A stretch of DNA of 64,000 nt from Schizochytrium sp. TIO01. Taxonomy: Eukaryota; Sar; Bigyra; Thraustochytrida; Thraustochytriidae. The stretch is from NCBI GenBank assembly GCA_004764695.1, contig SMSO01000014.1:3547148-3611147 (forward strand). The letters run 5' to 3'. How positions within the stretch are numbered: the first letter of the stretch is position 1; every line of letters starts with the position of its first letter. Shown piece after piece: positions 14,978 through 57,006 of the stretch. Under the pieces are notes generated by a model. It was not told the origin of the DNA. It made no database searches and saw only the letters and a list, made by a program, of their open reading frames with translations. The position numbers were made by a program, and so were the translations under genes.

Positions 14978-15697
14978 CTGTCATATGCATAAGATACCTT
15001 TCGTATACTTTAATATACGGCTAGTCTCAGTGAAAAAAAAAAAGAAAACACGCTCATCTGGTCAGTTCTTTTGTAGAAGCAAAGAAAGAATATCAGGAGT
15101 ATTAAAGTTAACATGAAGAAACTGAGCATGAGTATGCGTCACTTTCCTACGAAAGACTTTGAAGAAACAGAAATGCTTACTGGTGTTCGAAATTTTGTAA
15201 ATCTTCAAGCGTTAAGGCAAATAAGCAATCACAGGAGTTCGCGATAGTTATCCATGCTCAGATCTTGCTGTAAAACAGCGCTCTAGTTAGTTCGGAGCCA
15301 CCAAGAGCTTTTCTGTTGGTTGCATGTAAGCTCATGTTAGAGAAAATATCAACTGTACTCTTAGGGAATTACATATGGAGGCACTAGCTAATAGTAGATG
15401 CATAGGTACTAGTATTGGAGCTAAAATAAGCCCGGATAAGCCGGTTCTATTGAATATAAAATGGGTAAAAGAATGAAGATGTCTCAACGGCCGTATTGGT
15501 TAAGTTTCACCTTTTGACGAAAAGCATATCAGAAGAACCGCTGTGCAGATTGTCGAAGATATCTGCGAGACCTTCGGCAAAGCTTATACATACTGTTGCG
15601 CTAAAAGAGACAATTGTGGTTAGGCCCAGGACGGGCTTTGCTTGCGAATAGGCCTGGCAAGTTCTTTGGAGAAGTCAAGTTTCTGCGTTTAGCCGCG

Positions 15698-17986
15698 ATG
15701 GAGCTGTGCAGAAGCGACCTAGCCACCGTGGGACCGGTGTCTGGGCTGAACACGCTAAAAATTTTACCATTTGGCAGCAAGAGTAGGCGACAGCGAATCA
15801 TTGTAGGTGATGGTGCTGGGTTTATCACATGCTTGCAGTCAAAACGAGGAGAGACTTCTGCAGTTTTCAAAGCTCGTGCTGGTGAAAATAGCAACCCTGT
15901 TGCATCACTCACCTTAGATGGCGACAATATCTTTGCAGCAGAAGGTAGAGCAGTTCGAGGTTTTAACAAGAAAGGCAAAGAGACCTATGTGTACAACACA
16001 AGCCTTTCGGAATCTATTCGCCATTTAGTCAACTCAGGATCAACGTTCTGGGTTGCAGGCCAGCTTACTTATACTTCTTTCGAAGGTAGCTCTGAACGAG
16101 AATACTTGAAGTTTGAGGATTCAATCACAAGCCTTGCTGTAATGAATGCATCCACCTCGGAGAAGAGTATTGCTCTTCTTGGAGGCAGTGGTCATAAGAT
16201 TCGCTCTGTGTTTCATGGCGCTATCGTATCTACTCTTGCCACGTCTGGTGTCCCAACAAGCTTACAAGCATATGGGGAAAACTGCGAGCAAGGCCTTTAT
16301 GTGTACGGAACAGCGTCAGGATGCCTCGGGATGCTTCAAGTCTGCGAGTCTGGTCAATTGAAACGTCTATGGGAACTTGCTGGAGAAGGGAGCATCAATT
16401 GCATAAGTACATATGACTTTAATAAAGACGATATTCCGAACATTCTAGTTGGCCGAGACGATGGAAGCGTTCAGGTATTTGCTGTACATGGCACTGATGG
16501 AGCATCCAAGACACAGGAGAGTAAACAAAATGCATTATTCATACCTGAATATGCTTCACTTAAATATGAATGCCAAGTTGATGAGAGTGTTCGAGCAATT
16601 CAGGCAGGTGTGGTCAGCACCCCTGGATATGATGAAATTGTGCTCTGTACATATTCTGGAAATGTCATTAGCTTTAGCACTGAGGCCCTCGACACAGCAG
16701 AGACTGGAGATAAACAAGGGCGAACAAAGGCTGACGTCGATGCCGAGGGTCGCACCACACAACTTCGTGAGGAGCTCAAGTCAGTTCAAAAGCAAATTGA
16801 TGCAACACGCGCCAAATTACTCAAGCTGAATGGGGATACACAATCGAGCCTTGCAATCAACTTTGATCAGTTACATATTAACCACCGTCTCGAATTGCAA
16901 CCTCGAAGGAGCACGTACTGTCTCTCTTTAGAAATGGTAGTTCCAATGTCACTTGTTATTCTTCAGTCAGATCTTCCTATCAAACTCATCGATACTGATG
17001 AAGCGAACATTGATGGTAGCCGTTCATCCCAAAGCATAGTTATCACCAAAAAGGAGTTGCCAACGGGCGGGGTTCATGCAGTATATCGTCCAGAGGAAGC
17101 ATGCAAACGAATCGAAATTCGAATTGGCACCTTAGAAGGTCAATATGGTGAGATCCGGGTCACCGTAGTGGCTGCCACGAAGCCCCAACTTGGCCGTCAA
17201 CTCACGGTAGAGATCAAGCCTCTGTCTTTGCACCAACGATGTGACGTAATTGAAGACTTGGCCAAAATTCCTCTGAGCCACGTACGATTCACAGGAACAT
17301 TCTCGCTTCACCAAGTTCATGAATGGATTCAAGCGTGCCTCCCGTACGTGCCAGCAAGTACACCCACTCCTGAAACTATGAAAACCTTCTCAAAGTCACG
17401 CGGTATGGACGGCCGGGAAGAACCAGGTCAAGAGCAGCCAATGGCTGTACTATACTATCGCAACACTCTGGTAAATAGCGTACTTGTCGTTCGTTATTGT
17501 TCAGGGTTTATTGAAGTGGAGTCTGATTCGATTTCTGCTATCGCGATTGCTCGCGAGGTCATAACAGCTGTGGCGAACAAGAGAAAAGCAAACATCGTCA
17601 TGCGCTTCGAAATTAACCCTGCAACTGTACCATACTTTCTTCAGCGATTGGATGCTCCATTGCAAAAGTACACGAAACTCCATGAGCGCACACTACTTGC
17701 TGATGCCTTGCGTGAAATCTGTAATGACGCAGATGGATCTGCCAATGGAGCGTTTCTTGTACCTGAACATCGCAGTATTCTAGCCAAACCTGAAACCTCT
17801 TCAGTACAGCAAAATCAGTTTACATCCACACTCCAGGCCCTTCAAGGTGTTGTCTCAGATTTGTATGTAGATATAAAAAAGTTTGCAGGAAGCGACATCC
17901 GCAACCCAAACTTTCATGCAGGTCTCTCCCGGATTCTCGATAACTACTCTCTTGATGCACTGCTCAATTTTTTCTCTCAGAATTAA
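15698..17986 (+). CDS. BBS7: Bardet-Biedl syndrome 7 protein (BBSome subunit)
   Basis: A 762-residue intronless frame. The open frame extends 28 codons upstream without an ATG. The ATG at 15698 is chosen because MELCRSDLATVG then aligns with the usual BBS7 N-terminus. BBS7 is a core BBSome subunit, which carries membrane proteins in and out of cilia with intraflagellar transport. Residues 1-330 show the seven-bladed propeller pattern, with IIVGDGAGFITCL, VGRDDGSVQVF and YDEIVLCTYSGNVISF. A short coiled coil (about 350-385) follows. Next come the appendage/platform region (PIKLIDTDE, IEGQYG-like LEGQYGEI and IKPLSLHQR) and the helical C-terminus ending YSLDALLNFFSQN. Length is close to the animal protein (about 715). 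Its presence indicates a ciliated or flagellated life stage. Identification is firm because matches run along the whole length. Confidence 0.95.
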   Translation: MELCRSDLATVGPVSGLNTLKILPFGSKSRRQRIIVGDGAGFITCLQSKRGETSAVFKARAGENSNPVASLTLDGDNIFAAEGRAVRGFNKKGKETYVYNTSLSESIRHLVNSGSTFWVAGQLTYTSFEGSSEREYLKFEDSITSLAVMNASTSEKSIALLGGSGHKIRSVFHGAIVSTLATSGVPTSLQAYGENCEQGLYVYGTASGCLGMLQVCESGQLKRLWELAGEGSINCISTYDFNKDDIPNILVGRDDGSVQVFAVHGTDGASKTQESKQNALFIPEYASLKYECQVDESVRAIQAGVVSTPGYDEIVLCTYSGNVISFSTEALDTAETGDKQGRTKADVDAEGRTTQLREELKSVQKQIDATRAKLLKLNGDTQSSLAINFDQLHINHRLELQPRRSTYCLSLEMVVPMSLVILQSDLPIKLIDTDEANIDGSRSSQSIVITKKELPTGGVHAVYRPEEACKRIEIRIGTLEGQYGEIRVTVVAATKPQLGRQLTVEIKPLSLHQRCDVIEDLAKIPLSHVRFTGTFSLHQVHEWIQACLPYVPASTPTPETMKTFSKSRGMDGREEPGQEQPMAVLYYRNTLVNSVLVVRYCSGFIEVESDSISAIAIAREVITAVANKRKANIVMRFEINPATVPYFLQRLDAPLQKYTKLHERTLLADALREICNDADGSANGAFLVPEHRSILAKPETSSVQQNQFTSTLQALQGVVSDLYVDIKKFAGSDIRNPNFHAGLSRILDNYSLDALLNFFSQN

Positions 17987-34256: not shown

Positions 34257-36848
34257 CTACTTGCGAGCAAAGTTAAAGAACAAGCAGTACCAATGCGAGT
34301 GCATAACTTGAGCAAACGACCCAGTAGGGTTAGCACGCAGTTCGGGAATGAACTTATCGTAAATAGCTGTGCGATGAATAGACAACATACGCCGCAAGCT
34401 AGCATCTGTGGCTGTGAAAGCCCAGGTGGAAATAGTCGGGCAAATCTCCGGTTGCTCCTCGTCGCGAAACAACATTCGCAATGCTTGCATTGAGTCTATA
34501 GCCTCAAGCTTGTGCTGACCAAAGGAGAGGCCGGGCTTGCCGAGAGGCAGGACATGTAGAAGGTTGCCATCTTTAGATGTGCTTGAAGAAGGGAGCTTCG
34601 AGAACCTACCCGAGGTTGACCATTCACCATTCTTAGGACGTGAAGCAAGTCGAATGTTTGTCTTCAGAACATTCGGGTGGGCAGCGCGGGTCTTGCCTTC
34701 GCTGAAGAGCTTGAGAGCTTGCAAGTTCAGGGCAGCAGGAACGTCTCCCACCACACTAGCAGCAATGCTACTGTCGATGAAAACATTGGAATCACCAAAG
34801 GCAAAGCTGTGTGCGGAAAGATGTTCAAGCCATACAAGCTCCAGACTTTGAGTCGGTGCAATGTTGCGAATCACAATGCCCTTACCAAGGCGAGTATCAA
34901 GAGCGCAGCGGTTGTGCTGCGCGATCTCGCGCACCTTGCCAAGCAGCTCGTTATCAAGAGAGCGATCCATATTGTAGAGAAAAACCGTGTTGCGCACAGC
35001 TGTTGAGCCAGCAGCTGACTTCCAAGTAGGAGAGGCGCAAAGAGCAGAAAGCCAGTCAAGGCCCTTCGCGTTCCGAACGGCAACGACATAGTGCACACTC
35101 ATTTCAGTTTCCTTGGGAAGCTTGGCTTCGCGCAAAGCTGCATTAAGACGCTTACGACCCTCAAGCTTCACGTAAAGATCAAGAGCGTTTTGAATAGCAT
35201 CATCCATGTTGAAGTACTTGTAGTTGGCCAGACGACCCACAAAGTGCACATTGTTCACCTCCTCTTCGTCCTTGGCAAGTTCACGGTATTTTTCAAAGTG
35301 ACGCTGGTTCTCCTCTGTGGGAAATGGATAGTAAGGTTCGGCGCCATCCTTAATGTCTGTGGAGTACTCACGAATCAAAATAGACTGGGCAGAATCCTGG
35401 TGATACATGTGCTTGTACTCTGCGGTACGTGTGTGGTTTCCATCGCGGAACTGAGGAAAGTTCACCACAAAAGCAGGCTGGTTTACTGCAGGCTCGTCAA
35501 CCACAATGGTCTCAAACTTAATGGATCGGTACTGCAAAGGCTTCAAGTCCACGCCACGGTTGCGAAAAAACTGATCGATCTGGCCGGTAAAGAAGGTTTT
35601 CTCAAACTTAAGATTCGCGAACTGTTCGTTTTTGAGCATCTCAAAGTAGTCAGTTGAGGTAAACACGCGAATGTTCGGGTGATCTAAAGCTTCCTCAAAC
35701 CACCGAGTGTAGCCATCAGCAGGGAGAGCCTGGTGCTTATCATTGGGAAAGTAGCGGTCATCCCAATCAGTGCGCACAGGGATACGGGACAGCACAACCG
35801 GACCAAGATCCTCAGGGTAGACATTCCACTGCTTCTTGGTATACTCCTTGAAAAGTTTGTTATACAATCGCTCACCCACGCGACCCATACCCACCTCGCG
35901 CGAGTTCTTGGCAGTGGAGACATCGACCTCACCAACAGGGCTGTTCTGGCGTTCGGCCTTGAGCCAAGCCTCCATTTCCTCGACAGACTTAATATCCTCC
36001 CCCAACAAAGTATTCACAGTGTCAATGTTTACTGGAATAGGGATGAGTTTTCCATCTACGCGACCGATGACGCGGTGCTCATACGGTGTCCATTCGGAGA
36101 ACCGGTGTACATAGGTCCACACATCAGGTTTACTGGTGTGGAAGAGGTGAGCACCATATAAATTCACCAAAATGTCGGTGCGCTGCTCACGAAAGTCATA
36201 GCAGTTGCCACCGATGTGCGGGCGGCGCTCAATGATGAGGACGCGCTTGTTGTGATGGCGAGCGTACAAATCTGCAAGAACGGTACCCGAGAGACCAGCA
36301 CCAATGATCAGGATATCATATCCCTTCATCTCCTGGAAAGGTAGTACATTGGGAAATTGTTCAGACGCCAAGTCAATCGTCTCGGGTTGTGCTGCACCGG
36401 CGCGGCTTGTGAAAGGCACAACATGCTCCATATCAATGGGCTCCAAAGCATCGTTGGCGCTGGTTTGCACAGAGCTGGGCAAAACAAAATCATCGCCCAG
36501 ACTCTTCGCGTTCACGCCGGCATGCTGCAACCCGACAGGACTATTGGGGAACTTGCGATGAATTTTAGGGAGCTTGATCAAGTTTGACGATGGGTTAAGG
36601 TCGCAAGGAGCACTGGTTCCAAGAGAGTATCCCCGCGCAAACCAAGTTGCGAGAACAGCACTTGTGACAATAACCAGGACCGTCCAGAAGTCACAGCTTC
36701 TGCTGGTCAAACGTTTAAATGTTTGAGAGGAAGAAATGCCAAGACCGCCCATTCCGGAGGCGTGGCGTCGAGGCACGCGGGTTGGGAGGCTGTTTGAGAT
36801 ATTCAGACTGTGCCCTGACTCGCCTCGAGCGCGACGTTCGATAGCCAT
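34257..36848 (-). CDS. UDP-galactopyranose mutase fused to a DUF3431-like domain, type II membrane protein
   Basis: 863 residues, intronless. Residues 53-71 form a single membrane anchor, so the rest probably faces the Golgi or ER lumen. Residues about 176-565 are a UDP-galactopyranose mutase, the flavoenzyme that interconverts UDP-galactopyranose and UDP-galactofuranose. The FAD loop is GAGLSG (183-188), followed by IERRPHIGGN, and GAHLFHTSKPDVW. The typical substrate-site block RYFPNDKHQALPADGYTRWF (365-384) and GRLANYKYFNMDDAIQNAL (538-556) are present. Residues about 583-863 resemble DUF3431, a putative glycosyltransferase family. This part begins VHYVVAVRNAKGLDWL, has NTVFLYNMD and IAPTQSLELVWLEHL, and ends near MHSHWYCLFF. 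Most eukaryotic mutases are about 500 residues and cytosolic, so the anchor and extra domain are unusual. The mutase call is firm; the C-terminal call is by eye. Confidence 0.93.
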   Translation of the reverse strand: MAIERRARGESGHSLNISNSLPTRVPRRHASGMGGLGISSSQTFKRLTSRSCDFWTVLVIVTSAVLATWFARGYSLGTSAPCDLNPSSNLIKLPKIHRKFPNSPVGLQHAGVNAKSLGDDFVLPSSVQTSANDALEPIDMEHVVPFTSRAGAAQPETIDLASEQFPNVLPFQEMKGYDILIIGAGLSGTVLADLYARHHNKRVLIIERRPHIGGNCYDFREQRTDILVNLYGAHLFHTSKPDVWTYVHRFSEWTPYEHRVIGRVDGKLIPIPVNIDTVNTLLGEDIKSVEEMEAWLKAERQNSPVGEVDVSTAKNSREVGMGRVGERLYNKLFKEYTKKQWNVYPEDLGPVVLSRIPVRTDWDDRYFPNDKHQALPADGYTRWFEEALDHPNIRVFTSTDYFEMLKNEQFANLKFEKTFFTGQIDQFFRNRGVDLKPLQYRSIKFETIVVDEPAVNQPAFVVNFPQFRDGNHTRTAEYKHMYHQDSAQSILIREYSTDIKDGAEPYYPFPTEENQRHFEKYRELAKDEEEVNNVHFVGRLANYKYFNMDDAIQNALDLYVKLEGRKRLNAALREAKLPKETEMSVHYVVAVRNAKGLDWLSALCASPTWKSAAGSTAVRNTVFLYNMDRSLDNELLGKVREIAQHNRCALDTRLGKGIVIRNIAPTQSLELVWLEHLSAHSFAFGDSNVFIDSSIAASVVGDVPAALNLQALKLFSEGKTRAAHPNVLKTNIRLASRPKNGEWSTSGRFSKLPSSSTSKDGNLLHVLPLGKPGLSFGQHKLEAIDSMQALRMLFRDEEQPEICPTISTWAFTATDASLRRMLSIHRTAIYDKFIPELRANPTGSFAQVMHSHWYCLFFNFARK

Positions 36849-37409
36849 GCTGGCTGTTGTATTCGAGTATGTCTCGGCTCAAGTTTACCGGTTTCAAGAC
36901 TCCCTTGCTTCTGTGTTTGCAAGCAACGTCAAATGCGAGCAATCAGGCCAATGTCCCAAGACGGCAATAATAGCACGCTAGTGTCCACAATGCTCTCGAG
37001 AACGAGAACGATATGCAGAAATATGCGATGGAATCGCTTTGATTTCGTAAAGATGTATCACGTTTACGGGGTCCACGTGGAGCCCTGGGATAGCAAACGT
37101 TAACCGCTCGATGAGACAGACCTCTCGCGGCGCAGAGTCCGGCGGACTCCAAGATCAGGCGAAGACGAAGGTTGCGAACTCGCACACGGCGCCGTGAGGC
37201 ACCGGAAGAGAGTGGTTGCACCGGACGAGATGTGCAAAATGGGTTTGGCGGCGGCGATGAATAACTTCGACTACACACAATCCTTCACGTTTAATCGTCA
37301 CAACAGATTATAAAATTTAATTAAAATCTAAATTCTGATTCTTTCATTTATATTCTTTTTTTAACCCAATAGTGCTCCAATACTCGCATATAAGAGTTTC
37401 CACTTTCTC

Positions 37410-40511: not shown

Positions 40512-40965
40512 ATGGGCCTCCGTCGAAGAAAATGCGACTTTGCGTGGAGTTCCGTGCTGCTGGTGAACTGGTTTGCCACCAGAGGAAGCGGCATTGTGCA
40601 TGGGTTTCCAATCAATGCTTTGAGGATTCCGAACGGGCGGGCTTTTCCGGCGCTGGGACATCGCAGGGTCACTGGAGGTGGACCGCTGTCCGAGTTTGGA
40701 GAAGATTTTTTGAAGTGCGAGGGCACATGGTACGTGTGAATATTCTAGTTCGAGTCTTGTAAAGAATCGATGAGGAATTAAGTTGCATCTAAATACGTCC
40801 GCGATGTTATATCGATGACTAACAAAAGTAGCGATTCCATGAAGGTAAATTCAAACTGCATTGAATATTTATGGTGTCTTATTCCTGCTTCTCGATGTTT
40901 TATCATGGTTGTGTGGTCTATGATTTTTGCAAATCATCTGGACTCTTGGGATTATTACCCCCCAC

Positions 40966-41012
<47 letters not shown>

Positions 41013-43746
41013 AAACAACAACAAACAAACAAACAGGGCGGAGTGTCTTTGTAGACTGGACTCTGATAATGATGGTGAGACGAACGGGCTTGAACTAGGA
41101 GACCCCTGTTGCGAGTGGAGATTCAACTCTGAACGTCAAATTTTGCCTCGCAGAACTCGGATGCTATCGAATCCTTCGGATTCCTCGTCAGTTACAAATT
41201 TTTCTTTAGAAGCTATAGACTGCTCAGCACCTTTCAGCCCCGGAGAAGGCGTTCTACGTGGCAGCAAAAATTGGGATAATCACTTTGATGAACAAACTGT
41301 TAGGAGTACTCAACCTTCTGATGGTATCAGCCGCTTATTGGAACTTGTTACAGTTGCTCTTTTTGTACGACTACTCACCCTTGCTGAGCAAAATTGGAGA
41401 GCTAAACAGCTTCAACGACAGCAAAGCCTTGGCAAATCCAAAAAACTTCAGTCAAACATTCCATTCTGGTTCATTGCTATTTTGGCCTATCTTTGGGGCG
41501 ATTTGGGTAGTGCAATATCGCATGTTGTGCTTGATAATCCTGAGATTATTCGTCGCTGGCCTCTGCTTAAAGACTGCGCCTCTTCATTTCAAGAGCACCA
41601 CATCAATCCAAAAGTTCTTTCAGCACCCCCATTGTACTTTTTGTTACCTATGATTGCATGTACACTTCGCGAGCCGCAGCTTTATATCTTCTCAATCTTA
41701 GCATGCTTCTTTTTTGTTTTCGCATACATAGGACACATGTATTCTCATGCCGCCCAAGGCTGGGACTTTTTTCTCTTCGATCTAATTCTTCTCTCACGGT
41801 CGCATCACCATGTTCATCACACCACGTTTGCAAGCAACTTCGCTTTTCTTTCTGGATGGACTGATCCGCTTGTAAATTCTATTCTGCTTATTCTTCCACA
41901 AGCTTACGCTGGAACTTGGCTTTTCGGCCTGGGAGGACTATGGAGCGTGTTGCCGAGGCTTGTTGCTTCATTTACAAGATCGGCTTGGTGGATCACACAG
42001 AAGAATCGTCTCGTGATTTATATCCCCTTCATCTTGTTGTTACTTACATATTTTGGGCAAATTCAGCAAAACCGCCATGACTATACAGTTGCAGCACTGA
42101 CATCAGCGGTCGGCCAGGAGGTGGCAACATTATCGGTGCAGGAGACATCTGAGCAGCTATCGTCAAGACTATATGATGACCTTTTGCAAGACACACTATC
42201 CGAAGATATGGGCCTTTCACCTGCTAAGCAGTATTCTGCCATAACGATTGCAGCACATAATCAAGCATCAGATGGATGGCTGGTCTTAGGACAGGATGTC
42301 TTAGATGTAACTGACTGGATCAAATTTCATCCAGGAGGTCAAGAAGTCATGCTTCCTTATTTAGGGTTCAATGCGACCCTTGTGTTCCTAGAGCAAGGTC
42401 ACTCTGATGTTGCTGAGGAGACGACTCGTTTATATAAAATAGGGCAAGTGGCACCAGGTGAAACTGTCCCAGAACCTGAAATTAAGATGGATGTACTTAC
42501 AGATGCGTCTGGTGATGCATTGGGCCTCAAGCGTCCTATATTTTTACAGCCCATACAGGGAGAACCGTGCTTTGGACCTCCCCATCAGCTTGCTGGTGTG
42601 CCTGGTGGTCGTTGGCATCTAGACACAGTAATCCCATTTCTGGAAAAGTATGCACGTGGACGTGGAAGTACATTCGGAATTGTTCATAGCTCTGAACTTG
42701 CTATGCGGCTTTCGATTGATCTAGCCCTGCTCACTCCAGACCTTTTGGAGTCAACCCCGAACAATGCCTTTTACATTCGCACAGGACTGCCTGGCACTTT
42801 GAATCCCACCCAGCTTTCAAGAGAGGCATGGAAATTTGAGTTACGTCGAAGTACCGATGAAGTCCTGCGTGTCTACACCGCCCAGGAAATCCATGAGGCT
42901 GGATCAGTGATGGGTACTGGTGTGATGGAGTGCTCTGGAAATACAAGAACTTGGCACTTTGGTTTGCTGTCACAGGCTCAGTGGACGCGAGGTGTTCGTT
43001 TGCGAGATTTTTTGAAACCCTATGTTGATAAAATGGGTGCAGCTGCATCCACAAAAGATATTCTTGTGGAGGGATATGATGACCACCTGCGAACTGCTGG
43101 AGGCACTAAAGGAGCAAGCTGGGTATTCACGTGGGAACAAGTTGTGGAGACAGGTATGTTTCTTGCGACAGAGCTCAATGGTCAGCCCCTCCCACCTGAC
43201 CATGGCTTCCCTATTCGCCTTGTTGTACCAAATTGGTATGGTTGTACATGTATTAAATGGTTAAGACTTATCAAATTTGTCGACTCTCATAGAGTAAAAC
43301 CAACGGGCCAGATGTTTGAGTTTCGCACAAGAGTTCATATGCAAAGTGCATCATCAACGACTGCATATGGGTGGCACGCAAAGCAAGGCTTATCTGCAAC
43401 CGCCACACGAGCTGAGTTATGGCGACACCTTCCTTCAAACTCAACTTATCTTAAATTTGTTGGATTATTTTGGGGTGGTCAAGCAGATGCAGTTAACCCG
43501 CTCATGGACATTGATTTGCAGTCTGCATCTAAGAGCCTACTTGAGCCTGTCCAAGTCATCAAACCACGTTCGAGAATAACTGAATGGTCTACTTTGTGTC
43601 ATGCAATCCCTCTCGATACAAAATTGTTAAAAGGAAGTAAATTTACTGTCACCTTCCGACCACGCGATTCCAACATCTTGGCCCCGCGGTTACGTTCAAA
43701 AACGAGGTCGACCCCGGCGTGGTACACAAGAATGTTTCAACTTTAG
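40512..43746 (+). CDS. Temptin-like / lipid desaturase / cytochrome b5 / molybdopterin oxidoreductase fusion, two exons
   Basis: Exons 40512-40729 and 41037-43746 give 975 residues; an in-frame ATG at 40479 would add 11. The splice (GTACGT...CAG) restores one temptin-like domain: IPNGRAFPALGH, GGGPLSEFGEDF, then DSDNDGETNGLELGDPCCEW. A signal peptide or anchor precedes it. Residues about 226-351 match the FAD4/PEDS1 (TMEM189/CarF) lipid desaturase family. The histidine sites are kept: SHVVLDN, FQEHHINP, GHMYSH and HHHVHH (329-334, DNA 41803-41820), then SGWTDPL. Residues about 472-544 are a cytochrome b5 domain with HPGG (504-507) and a second heme histidine in GHSD. Residues about 646-960 are sulfite-oxidase-like, with YIRTGLPG and ECSGNTR holding the molybdenum cysteine (Cys705) and active-site arginines. 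The C-terminus fits the Mo-oxidoreductase dimerisation domain. Likely role: b5-fed desaturation of a membrane ether lipid or phosphatidylglycerol. The electron source is inferred. Confidence 0.88.
40962..41036 (+). repeat. (CAC)n(CAA)n microsatellite at the 3' end of the fusion-gene intron
   Basis: CAC units pass into about twelve CAA/ACA units and then CAAA units, ending at the splice acceptor AACAG (41036). The array takes the place where a pyrimidine tract would normally be and is itself open in the frame of exon 2. Confidence 0.9.
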
Positions 43747-53015: not shown

Positions 53016-53544
53016 GGATAGAGGAGTCGCACTACTTGAAGACCTTTCAATAAAGACTTCGTCCAGCCGACTCGCCGCAGCCAGATCTCAGACGTCAAGG
53101 TTCTAAACCTATTGTCGATTTCGGTCTTCAAGCTATTGTTTTTAATTTTAATTCTTTAATTCTTTTCCTTTTTTTAAATTAATTGAAGGCTTGATAAGCC
53201 TACCGTGGTACTATGGTTTTAAAATGTGTAATCCTAGACTTTTTTTAGATTGCTTCAAATCTTCTTTAGTCTACCTGAAATGAAGGCCAAATTTTCGATT
53301 TTGTTATTCGCTTATCCGAGAACTAAGTGTAAAAGCGTTGATTGGAGACAGATTGTTTAATTTACACCGACATCGTTCAAATTACTCATAAACTTTTTAA
53401 AATTAAATCCATATATATACATACATGTACGTACCTACATAATGATGAGCATTATAATATTTCTTCATTTTAAAAAAATGATTGACGAGAAAGCAGAACT
53501 TAAACGAGCCGCGGTTAGGTCACTAAGCCGTGCAGAACTTCGCC
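53016..53544. other. Divergent promoter of RNF113 and MSH1
   Basis: 529 bp between two start codons. It is AT-rich with long T and A runs (53135-53185, 53405-53480). No separate gene is recognised. Confidence 0.65.
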
Positions 53545-56500
53545 ATGAGCCGCGCTGCTGCATCTATGCGTCGGTTTCAGTGGCGTTTATTCACATTCGG
53601 TTCTGATGTAACACCCCGCTCCGCTCGTACAGGTCGTTCTTTGCTAGACAGCATCAGCCATCAGGTGCCGTGGAGGCCCATGACGACGATGCCTGCGCTT
53701 AGCGAAGCGACTCTGGAGTCTAAACCGAAGAAAAGCCGTGGTCGTGCTCGGAAAACAAAGACCGCAGTAGAGCTTGTAGCTGAGAGGCAGGAGCAGCAGC
53801 GTCTGGCATCGCAAGAGGAGGCTATTAGACTCCAAAAGGGTGCAAAACCCATCTTAGCCCAGTTCTTAAGGATTAAAGAAGAGCTCCCGGACCATGTTAT
53901 TCTGTTTCGCATGGGCGACTTTTACGAATGCTTTTTTGATGACGCTAAGATCGTTGCGGAGATGTTAAAAATTACCCTCGGGCGCAGATATGGTGAGTAT
54001 ATGTGTGGAATTCCGCACCATGCGCTCAATAGGTACTTAAAGCAGGTGCTAGAGCTCAACGTGAGAATTGCGATCTGTGAACAAGACATCAACGGCAGGA
54101 AAGAGGCAACACCAGGCCCATCCTCCTCAGTAGAGTCATCTGAATCAGCAACATCAAAATCGAAGAACACGCGTGAAAAGACCGCGAGCACTATTGTACG
54201 TCGCGAAATTAGAAGAATTCTTACACCCGGAACTGTGACCGATGATGAATTCCTGGAGAGGAGCGAGCAGAATCTCTTGGTGGCAATTGCGTCTGACGGT
54301 AAACGTACAAAGCCTAGCTATGGTCTTGCTCAGCTTGATCTCTCTACTGGTGAGGTGGCAATGGCGCCTCTCGGTTCTGCGAAAGATCTAGAATTCAACC
54401 TATCACGGTTTAAAGCGAAAGAACTCATCATGCCGCGCTCTCTTGCAAGCCTCCCAATTTTGGTTGTTGACGAGGGTATTCGCACAGGAGCATTGGAAAG
54501 CTTAGACGTCGGCCGAGATGATGGTGGAGAAGTTGACCAGCACTTATCAACGGAGCACATGGACGAGGTGGAGGGAATACCAACTAGTAAAAGTGATCAG
54601 TTTGATTCCTTTCACCTAGATGTCATTCGATGTCCAGCGCTAGGCAATTGTTGCTCTTCGTTTCGGCCAGATAACACATTCGACGCGAGCTCGCTCGAAT
54701 CTGTCCTGGATGAAGCAGGATCCATGGAGGAGGTCCCAATAAATAATCTATCTCCTGCGGAGCGTGCTGCCTTGGTTGGCGTGCTCGAGTACGGACGGTT
54801 TGTGCTACGAGGAAAGGTCCCTCACGTGTCAATGTGTGAACGTAACGATTTCTCTAGCTCTAAACTAAGCGCAATGGAGATTGACCCAGCTGCATTGAAG
54901 AGTCTAGAGATTACCCAGACCATCACCGGACGTAAGCGGGGCTCGCTTTTGCACACCATGGATCGAACCATAACTCCGGGCGGTTCACGACTGTTGGGAA
55001 ATGGTCTTCGTACCCCATTCGTCGAGAAGGAGCGCATTGAAGGCCGTCTCAACGCAGTGGATTTTCTTAAATCATCTCTTGAAGCCCGTCATGTAATTCA
55101 AGAGCATTTACGCAATATCTCGGATCCGCACCGCAGCTTGCAGCGTATTGTGGACTCTACATGGCTTAAGCGAGATTTGGCTGTGCTAGCTATTATGCTC
55201 GACCGAGCGGGGAAACTTGCGGATGACCTCGAGCATATTTTTCATACAGAAGCTGAAATTCACCAGCAGCATTCACAGCAGCACCAGCAAAGGATGGCAC
55301 CAGAAGCCCCCTCCTCGCTACGTGTTAGCGTACAACGAATCCAAGAACTTCGAGTCCAGCATGCAAAATTGTTCAGCGAATATCGCAACGGAATTGTTAC
55401 AGACCCAGAAGTGATCACGCTTTTCGATTCCGAACCAACAAAGAAACGGCGGCGTAAGAACACAGCGACAAGCGAGGGCGTTGATGATGGTGCGTCTGAC
55501 GAAGATGGCAATGCAGATGCGTCTAAATCTGAGGAAGGAGTCCTTCATTTAGTTCCAGGTGATATCAAAGTTGGTTTCTCTCCGGAGCTCGATAAATTTC
55601 GTGAACTAAGGTCAAACAAACGAGGTGTCGTGCAGCAAATGGAGAAAAGCTTTCAAGAAATGTTTGGTATTCAACGCCTAAAGGTTGATATGCGGCGAAA
55701 TGGGATGCTCTATATTGAAGTTCCAGCCAAAGAAGCAGAAGGACTTCCTGCGGATGCTGGATTGCGCAAGATACAAGAGTTGCGAGGAAGATCTCGGTAC
55801 CGGCACCCCGACCTTGTGGAGCTTGAGGTCGACATGCTCAAAGCTTCAGAAGATGTATCTGCCATGGAATCCAAGCTAGCTAAACAATTTTCAATGCGTA
55901 CACGAGACTACTCGAGCAAAATTCGCGAAGTCGCAGATGCGTTAGCTGAAATAGATGTCATCAACAGCCTTGCCACCTTGGCTGAAGATATGAACCTTAA
56001 TCGTCCAGTTCTTGTCGATGAACCAGTAGCCCACATATCTCAAGGCCGTCATTTAGTTGTCGAAAGTCAAAGCCGTGGCACTGGAGGTGGTCCACGGTCA
56101 TTCGTCCCAAATCCTGTGTCTCTTTCATCGTCTGCCGATGAAGGCTCACCGGTCTGGCTCATTACAGGCCCAAACATGGGAGGAAAGAGTACTTATTTGC
56201 GCCAGAATGCGCACATCATGATTCTTGCGCAGCTTGGATCCTTTGTTCCTGCCAAAGAGGCTACGCTTGGCATTGTGGATCGTCTGTATTGCCGTGTAGG
56301 CGCTTCAGATGAACTTATTGCAGATCGGTCAACTTTCATGGTAGAGATGCAAGAGACTGCAACGATTCTGCGCCGAGCTACTAAAAATTCCTTCGTCATT
56401 GTTGATGAAATCGGGCGAGGCACCTCAACAAGAGATGGTTGTGCAATCGCACAGTCTGTGCTAGAAGCATTAGTCGATATTGGATGTCGAACATTATTTG

Positions 56501-57006
56501 CCACGCATTTCCATCAGCTACCTGCTTTGGTGTCTCCAGAGGAAGACCGTGTAGAACTGTTTCGCATGAGTTCAGTTTTCGACCCTGGATCAAACGAACT
56601 GATTTACCTGTATGAAATAGAGGAAGGTATTGCTGATAACTCCTACGGTGTGCATGCCGCACGCCTAGCAGATGTCCCTGAATCAGTTCTTTCTCGTACG
56701 GAGGAGCTCCTGAAGGAGTTTGACCAACAAACGCGTTTGGTCTCTGACTTTAGCTCTTTTGATAGCCAAACTAAAGGCTCAAGAAGAAAACCCGAGCTTG
56801 TGAATCCTCAGTCGGTCAAAGTCGAACTAGACTTTCCAGAACATGTCTTTGAAGTAGACCCGAGCACCTGGTCAAAGCTATCTCTGCCCCAACTTGACGA
56901 TCAGCTCCGTAACTTGGATACAAAATGCCTGAGTCGCCAAGATGCCCTCCGCGCCCTAGGAGGTGTGCAGGGATTTCTCCAAGCTCTGTTGCGACCTTCT
57001 CCTTAA
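53545..57006 (+). CDS. MSH1: Bacterial-type MutS, probably mitochondrial (MSH1-like)
   Basis: 1153 residues from the first ATG (53545). The frame is open upstream without ATG. The N-terminus is rich in Arg, Ser and Ala, as expected for mitochondrial import. All MutS1 domains are present. The mismatch-binding FYE is in FRMGDFYECFFDDA (126-128, DNA 53920-53928), and YMCGIPHHALNRYL follows. The connector and core domains include TMDRTITPGGSRLL. The ATPase has Walker A GPNMGGKST (875-883, DNA 56167-56193), STFMVEM, Walker B FVIVDEIGRGTSTRDG, and FATHFHQL. The gene is longer than bacterial MutS (about 850) because of an acidic insert near residues 630-670 and other loops. No C-terminal nuclease of the plant GIY-YIG or coral HNH type is seen. 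The protein recognises mismatches or lesions in organellar DNA. An AATAAA word lies 13 bp after the stop. Confidence 0.93.
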   Translation: MSRAAASMRRFQWRLFTFGSDVTPRSARTGRSLLDSISHQVPWRPMTTMPALSEATLESKPKKSRGRARKTKTAVELVAERQEQQRLASQEEAIRLQKGAKPILAQFLRIKEELPDHVILFRMGDFYECFFDDAKIVAEMLKITLGRRYGEYMCGIPHHALNRYLKQVLELNVRIAICEQDINGRKEATPGPSSSVESSESATSKSKNTREKTASTIVRREIRRILTPGTVTDDEFLERSEQNLLVAIASDGKRTKPSYGLAQLDLSTGEVAMAPLGSAKDLEFNLSRFKAKELIMPRSLASLPILVVDEGIRTGALESLDVGRDDGGEVDQHLSTEHMDEVEGIPTSKSDQFDSFHLDVIRCPALGNCCSSFRPDNTFDASSLESVLDEAGSMEEVPINNLSPAERAALVGVLEYGRFVLRGKVPHVSMCERNDFSSSKLSAMEIDPAALKSLEITQTITGRKRGSLLHTMDRTITPGGSRLLGNGLRTPFVEKERIEGRLNAVDFLKSSLEARHVIQEHLRNISDPHRSLQRIVDSTWLKRDLAVLAIMLDRAGKLADDLEHIFHTEAEIHQQHSQQHQQRMAPEAPSSLRVSVQRIQELRVQHAKLFSEYRNGIVTDPEVITLFDSEPTKKRRRKNTATSEGVDDGASDEDGNADASKSEEGVLHLVPGDIKVGFSPELDKFRELRSNKRGVVQQMEKSFQEMFGIQRLKVDMRRNGMLYIEVPAKEAEGLPADAGLRKIQELRGRSRYRHPDLVELEVDMLKASEDVSAMESKLAKQFSMRTRDYSSKIREVADALAEIDVINSLATLAEDMNLNRPVLVDEPVAHISQGRHLVVESQSRGTGGGPRSFVPNPVSLSSSADEGSPVWLITGPNMGGKSTYLRQNAHIMILAQLGSFVPAKEATLGIVDRLYCRVGASDELIADRSTFMVEMQETATILRRATKNSFVIVDEIGRGTSTRDGCAIAQSVLEALVDIGCRTLFATHFHQLPALVSPEEDRVELFRMSSVFDPGSNELIYLYEIEEGIADNSYGVHAARLADVPESVLSRTEELLKEFDQQTRLVSDFSSFDSQTKGSRRKPELVNPQSVKVELDFPEHVFEVDPSTWSKLSLPQLDDQLRNLDTKCLSRQDALRALGGVQGFLQALLRPSP

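Follow-up and report, generated by a model that had tools for sequence, protein, structure and literature searches.

A single predicted protein of Schizochytrium sp. TIO01 joins, to near certainty, four modules in one chain: an N-terminal temptin domain, a lipid desaturase core, a cytochrome b5 and a molybdenum oxidoreductase domain. The gene lies on the forward strand, as do all features described below, at positions 40512-43746 of the window (the 64,000-nucleotide stretch of DNA analysed here), and its two exons, 40512-40729 and 41037-43746, encode 975 amino acids. Ligands for all three metal sites (di-iron, heme and molybdenum) are present in the predicted protein. Our preferred reading, which we hold tentatively and at a little under an even chance, is that it is a single-chain redox enzyme of a secretory-pathway or cell-surface membrane, in which electrons would pass from molybdenum through b5 to the di-iron site and desaturate a lipid.

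The gene begins with an ATG at 40512 and its stop codon ends at 43746, as a previous sequence-only reading of the window had placed them. The intron (40730-41036) opens with a GT donor at 40730, closes with an AG acceptor ending at 41036 and carries a CAA/CAAA simple repeat near its 3' end. It splits the temptin domain, whose halves score 20.1 and 44.8 bits separately and 83.1 bits when joined (Temptin_C, PF24784; Pfam cut-off 27); the splice is supported because the joined halves outscore the separate ones. Exon 2 is a single open frame of 902 codons, and the longest open frame among 200 single-base shuffles of this stretch was 180 codons. The fusion of the second temptin half, the desaturase, b5 and the molybdenum domain is therefore independent of the gene model, which matters only for the first temptin half and the apparent signal peptide. 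Within exon 2, Lipid_desat (PF10520) reaches 34.0 bits (cut-off 26.4), Cyt-b5 (PF00173) 53.1 bits (23.7) and Oxidored_molyb (PF00174) 101.2 bits (24). With Temptin_C, all four domains exceed their Pfam cut-offs, bearing out the previous proposal of four modules in one spliced frame, and the metal-ligand motifs listed there (EHH, GHMYSH, HHHVHH, HPGG and ECSGNTR) are found as written.

The molybdenum module has bacterial proteins as its nearest relatives found, and third-position GC is uneven along the gene (0.54 in temptin versus 0.30-0.43 elsewhere; 0.40 overall versus 0.50 in the genome's own sulfite oxidase and 0.49 in its nitrate reductase), both of which would fit an assembly join or bacterial contamination. 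Against this, the molybdenum module shares its exon with b5 and one temptin half, the locus was also located within the 64-Mb assembly on a 7.46-Mb contig, the DNA stretch read contains no N, and the cilium gene BBS7 lies in the same window. We consider such an origin highly improbable and, on the strength of the single exon, the fitted intron and the megabase contig, reject it. It is also quite improbable that separate transcripts or proteolytic processing yield a desaturase and a b5-molybdenum part that act apart. An acidic 55-residue linker, which precedes b5 and follows an extra hydrophobic segment (E2, below), and a 100-residue stretch between b5 and the molybdenum domain could be processed, but these 2.7 kb form one open frame that needs no intron, where shuffled sequence gave no frame beyond 180 codons.

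The desaturase core (41488-41883) carries its histidines in ISHVVLD, EHH, HMYSH and HHHVHH. Comparison by hhalign with nine Myxococcota PF10520 proteins, drawn from 16 PF10520 frames, gave 96.9% probability and 27% identity over 128 columns. For the histidines, 30 PF10520 loci were cut out, of which 25 gave a row; 11 wrong-frame rows were dropped and 14, from Myxococcota, were used. The window protein has His at nine of the ten columns invariant across these 14 rows. Eight histidines of CarF/PEDS1 are described in PMC9131029 as kept in all homologues, and all eight are present here in the columns that we assigned to them. The Asp and Phe required by PEDS1 (human D99 and F117) are found at aligned columns 101 and 119, the assignment of numbering to columns again being ours. 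At the tenth histidine column there is a gap, and the ITRHDFxExNG segment is absent. We take the missing column to be the additional PEDS1 histidine of the ITRHDF segment (CarF H113, mouse H131), and to be the one reported as necessary for full PEDS1 activity.

The NCBIfam CarF/PEDS1 model, NF045946, was not among the window protein's matches at E<=1; one tested Myxococcota protein scored 245.8 bits against it, itself under the cut-off of 500. The label 'FAD4/PEDS1-type', given previously, accordingly stands at the level of the PF10520 superfamily, to which the plant plastid enzyme FAD4, a delta-3-trans desaturase of PG, also belongs, and goes no further. The missing histidine and the lack of an NCBIfam match rule out PEDS1 by membership, though the protein could still work in a PEDS1-like way. 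With the plasmanylethanolamine desaturase CarF/TMEM189 (PEDS1), which is b5-dependent (PMC9131029), it has in common the histidine pattern, the active-site Asp and Phe and four core membrane segments; it differs in the absent segment and histidine, in its fused b5, molybdenum and temptin modules, and in a probable opposite orientation. An exon-by-exon search of the best candidates in this genome found no PF10520 match besides the window gene, so if plasmalogen-type chemistry occurs there, this gene is the sole candidate in view.

The cytochrome b5 domain (42247-42450) has both axial histidines, H504 in HPGG and H528 in QGHSD, the latter assigned by resemblance. It stands ahead of the molybdenum domain, the same order as in the genome's own sulfite oxidase. 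The molybdenum domain (42811-43290) has its ligand Cys (Cys705) at 42931-42933, in ECSGN. The C-terminal domain after it (43291-43743) can be aligned to the C-terminal portion of an exported Myxococcota family. Pfam found no match in 43282-43743 alone and no Mo-co_dimer in the window protein, although the C-terminus aligns with that region, so that of the sulfite-oxidase layout (b5, molybdenum domain, Mo-co_dimer) the first two parts are present and the third is unmatched.

This exported family comprises 25 proteins from 23 of 377 genomes. In our tree, from whose 67 rows five near-identical Hymenobacter rows were left out, the molybdenum module groups with all 25 of them (support 100/100) on a long branch of 1.53, and the sulfite oxidase and the nitrate reductase of this genome fall outside the clade. 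Its identity to one member, L021, is 33% over 381 alignment positions, and ECSGN, FGLxS, GASW, YGCxCIKW, QMxEF and the C-terminal WGG and YxR blocks are shared with the family. The six bacterial proteins scanned all have Oxidored_molyb alone, with neither b5 nor desaturase. Upstream, an RR-like motif followed by Cys, as in export leaders, occurs under a loose pattern in 22 of the 24 family frames besides L021. Among the sequences compared, the nearest relatives found are exported bacterial proteins.

A scan of genome contigs with the molybdenum alignment gave 345 confirmed stretches, of which the best 80 were kept, L021 in first place; 40 loci of those 80 (L022-L061) formed a comparison set, and 39 gave a frame. 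Scanning the same contigs with exon 2 yielded 14 pattern matches, none confirmed. In viral contigs, two scans produced no pattern match and a third produced 34, again none confirmed. Across 21 bacterial loci, L021 included, we saw no conserved partner gene: the frames recurring in at least four loci all overlap the molybdenum gene. Nor does the family co-occur with PF10520, which is present in 3 of its 23 genomes as against 95 of 377 overall.

Pocket residues of sulfite oxidase, beside the molybdenum Cys, are R138, R190, W204, Y322 and R450 (chicken numbering). The window protein keeps the Cys and the equivalents of R138, R190 and W204, and lacks those of Y322 and R450, the Y322 column being uncertain. 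Among the 39 other bacterial proteins, Tyr occupies the Y322 column in none and Arg the R450 column in ten, which means that neither absence distinguishes sulfite oxidases from other enzymes here, and we dropped the idea that they exclude sulfite. As aligned, the pocket residues are mixed regarding sulfite as substrate. Since R190 is found in 4 of 25 and W204 in none of 25 members of the Myxococcota family, the chemistry of the window protein, which has both, may differ from theirs. The domain also shows weak similarity both to MsrP and to sulfite dehydrogenases. Animal-type sulfite oxidase likewise has b5 directly before the molybdenum domain and shares the Cys and the three retained residues; the window protein departs from it in lacking an Arg450 equivalent and, at the uncertain Tyr322 column, a Tyr, and in lying on the other side of the tree. 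Nor is it the sulfite oxidase or the nitrate reductase that the cell ordinarily uses, because the genome carries a canonical sulfite oxidase (b5, molybdenum domain and Mo-co_dimer) and a nitrate reductase as separate genes. The previous description as 'sulfite-oxidase-type' thus fits at the Pfam level and fails for the clade, which is that of the exported family, and for Mo-co_dimer.

These likenesses bear on an unlikely reading in which no single circuit exists: the molybdenum-b5 part would be a sulfite-oxidase-like or other oxidase that hands its electrons to an acceptor outside the protein, while the desaturase would serve only as a membrane anchor or have an activity of its own. The order of b5 and molybdenum domain and the retained Cys, R138, R190 and W204 agree with it, as do the divergence of the desaturase core without its ITRHDFxExNG segment and the gap before b5, which holds up to two hydrophobic segments as well as the linker. 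In a mere anchor, however, nine of ten invariant histidines and the PEDS1-site Asp and Phe would not be expected to be kept.

At the N-terminus, a probable signal peptide (40512-40607; MGLRRRK and a hydrophobic stretch) was judged by eye, the stretch scoring weakly. It is followed by the intron-split Temptin_C domain (residues 35-119; 40614-41175). All five other temptin genes of this genome carry Cu2_monoox_C in the same open frame, and fusions of temptin with monooxygenase are described from lophotrochozoans in PMC2762978; these proteins likewise have an N-terminal temptin on an oxidoreductase, with a different catalytic module.

Topology decides whether a molybdenum-heme-di-iron chain can work at all. 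Hydrophobic segment A (41326-41382), equivalent to core TM1, is followed by an A-B loop (41383-41457) of 25 residues with six K/R and one D/E. In 14 of 14 Myxococcota PF10520 proteins (of 16 frames; 13 common to the histidine set) this loop has 0-2 K/R and is 8-14 residues long. Two extra hydrophobic segments, the weak E1 (41884-41940) and the strong E2 (42007-42063), are without counterpart in these 14 proteins. Of the loop residues, 10 of 53 are K/R on one side of the membrane and 4 of 73 on the opposite side; a one-sided test, picked after the sequence had been seen, gives p=0.019. In a five-segment model, where only E2 spans, the figures are 7 of 31 and 7 of 120 (p=0.0096); the bias being equally strong, loop charges do not settle the topology, and b5 and the molybdenum domain would then lie across the membrane from the di-iron site. 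Taken together, the apparent signal peptide, the temptin domain and the loop charges suggest, as moderate evidence, that the catalytic face is on the lumenal or external side, the reverse of the arrangement in CarF. An inverted desaturase fold of this kind would be unusual, since the CarF histidines are described as cytoplasmic (PMC9131029).

That orientation of CarF favours a contender that we rate as unlikely but worth weighing: a cytosol-facing, OLE1-type b5-fused desaturase, in which NADH-b5 reductase feeds b5 and then the di-iron site, and the molybdenum domain also takes electrons from b5, using them to reduce an S-oxide, N-oxide or nitrate-like substrate. Fusion of b5 to a desaturase is a known arrangement, the molybdenum cofactor is made in the cytosol, and the weak similarity to MsrP alongside sulfite dehydrogenases also fits. 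In OLE1-type and front-end desaturases b5 is likewise fused to the di-iron desaturase as electron donor; they belong to another desaturase family and have no molybdenum domain. Against this contender, temptin and the apparent signal peptide point to an external N-terminus, a placement with which the K/R-rich A-B loop agrees, unlike the CarF orientation, and no reductase domain is among the protein's Pfam matches.

In the preferred single-chain reading, temptin, the di-iron face, b5 and the molybdenum domain would all lie on the exoplasmic side, with the desaturase core spanning the membrane by four plus one or two segments. The molybdenum domain would oxidise a small substrate there, the b5 heme would pass the electrons on singly, and the di-iron site would use them with O2 to form a double bond, which may be that of a vinyl ether, in a membrane lipid. 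Such a fusion would make sense because NAD(P)H-cytochrome b5 reductase works in the cytosol, from where it could not supply a desaturase on the opposite face. To our knowledge, no route exists for loading the molybdenum cofactor in the secretory pathway, and this counts against the mechanism. The electron chain from molybdenum through heme to di-iron that was proposed previously is possible on these data. A more specific version, an inside-out di-iron desaturase whose active site faces the lumen or exterior and whose electrons come, via a built-in b5, from a built-in molybdenum enzyme related to exported bacterial proteins and not from cytosolic NAD(P)H, we regard as doubtful.

No such fusion, and no plasmalogens or ether lipids in thraustochytrids, appeared among the literature matches listed, and none of six terms searched occurs in the main text of an A. 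limacinum proteome paper (PMC12221091). If the protein is one circuit, lipid desaturation would be driven directly by the substrate of a molybdenum site, a coupling which we know of in no described enzyme, and it would have to be asked how a eukaryotic cell brings the molybdenum cofactor to the exoplasmic face of a membrane. Were the inside-out version true, we would know of no earlier desaturase powered by molybdenum, nor of any earlier molybdoenzyme in the secretory pathway of eukaryotes. The finding also brings into view a bacterial molybdenum family poorly matched by NCBIfam models: all three of its members scanned score far under the cut-offs of every model that they match.

The fusion gene consists of two forward-strand exons, at 40512-40729 (+) and 41037-43746 (+) of the window, which joined give 975 codons. 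Exon 2 alone is a single frame of 902 codons, against a longest frame of 180 codons in 200 single-base shuffles, and it carries matches above the Pfam cut-offs to Temptin_C, Lipid_desat, Cyt-b5 and Oxidored_molyb, which bears out the sequence-only reading that four modules share one spliced frame. Every motif named in that reading is present, as is a putative second heme histidine of b5. The Temptin_C score supports the splice: taken separately, the halves reach 20.1 and 44.8 bits, whereas the joined exons reach 83.1 bits. Third-codon-position GC reaches 0.54 across temptin and ranges over 0.30-0.43 in the remainder of the gene, which we read as ordinary variation.

The sequence establishes the domains, their ligands and their order. 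The most likely mechanism, which we put forward tentatively, is that the molybdenum domain would oxidize a substrate, b5 would pass the electrons on singly and the di-iron site would desaturate a lipid, all three sharing one membrane face; the direction of flow, the side of the membrane and the substrate are what we infer. A precedent for such a fusion is eukaryotic nitrate reductase, described in a passage of PMC6400420 as a chimera of sulfite oxidase, b5 and reductase. A literature search on such fusions and on thraustochytrid ether lipids gave none with this domain order among the matches listed; orthologues may be annotated in eukaryotic proteomes yet undiscussed in the literature.

The molybdenum domain had been described as sulfite-oxidase-type. 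Its best solved relatives by sequence are indeed sulfite oxidases and dehydrogenases (60-68 bits), but a 62-row tree places it, on a long branch (1.53), together with 25 rows of a Myxococcota family (support 100/100), while the sulfite oxidase and nitrate reductase of this genome fall elsewhere. The best prokaryote-genome match, a Myxococcales protein (L021), aligns to residues 41-420 of the 420-aa query with 33% identity (E 1e-46); the match after it, among the best 80 of 345 confirmed stretches, has an E of 9e-22 over a shorter stretch. The family occurs in 23 of 377 Myxococcota genomes, with 25 matches of 188-908 bits, the 908-bit match being L021 itself, part of the query. In 28 genomes drawn from the prokaryote-scan loci, 2 of which overlap with the 377, the best match scores 110 bits. 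With L021 left out, RR stands upstream of the molybdenum cysteine in 23 of 24 frames, and a loose RR-like-plus-Cys leader pattern fits 22 of 24. Oxidored_molyb is the sole Pfam match in all six proteins scanned, and all three scanned against NCBIfam score far under the cut-offs. The members (L021, L103-L126) make up an exported-type family with the signature ECSGN...FGLxS...GASW...YGCxCIKW...QMxEFAxRTHQ, and no conserved neighbour gene was found beside the 21 loci compared. Transfer from bacteria may explain the grouping among the relatives sampled, which are bacterial.

The pocket columns compared correspond to the chicken sulfite-oxidase residues numbered R138, C185, R190, W204, Y322 and R450. 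The window protein keeps the first four and lacks Y322 (Ala in the MAFFT alignment, Lys in the HMMER alignment) and R450. All 25 family proteins share R138 and C185, but only 4 have Arg at the R190 column and none has Trp, Tyr or Arg at W204, Y322 or R450, respectively; R190 and W204 are residues that the window protein keeps and that are mostly or wholly absent from the family with which it groups. Counts in 39 other bacterial proteins (R138 32, R190 38, W204 38, Y322 0, R450 10) show that the Y322 column, which may be misaligned, has no separating power here and that R450 is weak. These residues neither establish nor rule out sulfite as the substrate.

The claim of a FAD4/PEDS1-type desaturase holds as to kinship with PF10520: against an alignment of nine Myxococcota PF10520 proteins, hhalign gives a probability of 96.9% with 27% identity over 128 columns, and of the 10 His columns invariant in an alignment of 14 such proteins, the window protein keeps 9. 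The tenth lies in ITRHDFxExNG, a segment absent from the window protein in that alignment. According to passages of PMC9131029, eight histidines of CarF/PEDS1 are common to all homologues and essential; CarF requires a ninth, H113, whose mouse counterpart H131 is needed for full activity. The same passages list a required Asp and Phe and describe CarF as crossing the membrane with four helices, every histidine lying on the cytoplasmic side. By our own column assignment, the window protein appears to share the eight histidines, the Asp and the Phe with CarF/PEDS1 and to lack the ninth histidine. The NCBIfam CarF model does not match it at E<=1; the model matches the single Myxococcota PF10520 protein tested, yet under the cut-off. 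Because the ninth histidine and its segment are absent and the CarF model is unmatched, we call the module a putative divergent PF10520 desaturase.

Five other temptin matches occur in the genome, all on contig C36, and in 5/5 a nearby open frame, equal in length and on the same strand, also matches Cu2_monoox_C. These five putative temptin-Cu2_monoox_C genes lie at G000:C36:3378370-3394086 and 3233793-3234998, with four packed into 16 kb. Cu2_monoox_C has a sixth match, on contig C32, with no temptin match nearby. Temptin-monooxygenase fusions are known from lophotrochozoans and were stated in 2009, in a passage of PMC2762978, as not found outside them. Temptin here sits at the N-terminus of probably secreted oxidoreductases, which argues for an exoplasmic N-terminus of the window protein.

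Membrane segments were scored on a crude home-made hydrophobicity scale, lower being more hydrophobic. The four core desaturase segments, A-D, score 0.6, 1.8, 3.4 and -2.6 and resemble those of 14 Myxococcota PF10520 proteins (-3.3 to 2.9, 1.1 to 3.8, 1.1 to 4.8 and -1.9 to 0.3), segment D exceeding all 14 counterparts in hydrophobicity. Downstream of HHxxHH, the window protein has two further segments, E1 (2.7) and E2 (-0.75), where the 14 have none below 4.7. A six-segment model would put temptin, the di-iron face, b5 and the molybdenum domain on the same side. Its loops hold 10 K/R in 53 residues on the non-catalytic side and 4 in 73 on the catalytic side (one-sided p=0.019), by a test picked post hoc, after the data were seen, with globular ends excluded. 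Within the A-B loop, 6 of 25 residues are K/R, against 0-2 of 8-14 residues in 14/14 PF10520 proteins. This bias and the K/R-rich loop suggest an orientation opposite to that of CarF: the reported CarF histidines are cytoplasmic, whereas the di-iron face here is predicted on the other side. Sequons at residues 127, 518 and 874 fit, weakly, an exoplasmic b5-molybdenum part. The chief rival to the internal circuit is a cytosol-facing b5 desaturase fed by a reductase, with the molybdenum domain as a second electron acceptor; desaturases with fused b5 are a precedent. With five segments (E2 only), the charge bias is equally strong (7 of 31 vs 7 of 120, p=0.0096), and b5 and the molybdenum domain would lie across the membrane from the di-iron site, cutting the circuit from molybdenum to lipid.

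The window is C13:3547148-3611147 of a 64-Mb assembly of 37 contigs, in which a genome search finds one PF10520 match, the window gene, and four Oxidored_molyb matches including it. Two of the others are canonical in layout, one a sulfite oxidase (b5, Mo, dimer) and one a nitrate reductase (Mo, dimer, b5, FAD, NAD); since both are encoded elsewhere, we rejected the fusion as the cell's ordinary version of either. A further locus (L008, G000:C24:3585348-3585767) is a 367-aa frame with the molybdenum domain only; its N-terminal stretch is hydrophobic, and its cysteine lies within TWNCVTGW, a context that presumably resembles MsrP.

Elsewhere in the window, 34260-36878 (-) holds a UDP-galactopyranose mutase domain in an 873-codon frame with a long N-terminal extension bearing a hydrophobic stretch, and at 53527-57003 (+) about 107 residues precede MutS_I in the 1159-codon frame of a MutS homologue. 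One frame at 15605-17983 (+) is the BBSome subunit BBS7, which fits a eukaryote with flagella. The 18S gene of the genome appears to resemble the gene of a thraustochytrid near Aurantiochytrium. Nine contigs carry the 18S core pattern at one place each, eight of these lying <75 kb from the contig start; the one on C13 (L019, G000:C13:7158313) lies ~304 kb before the contig end.
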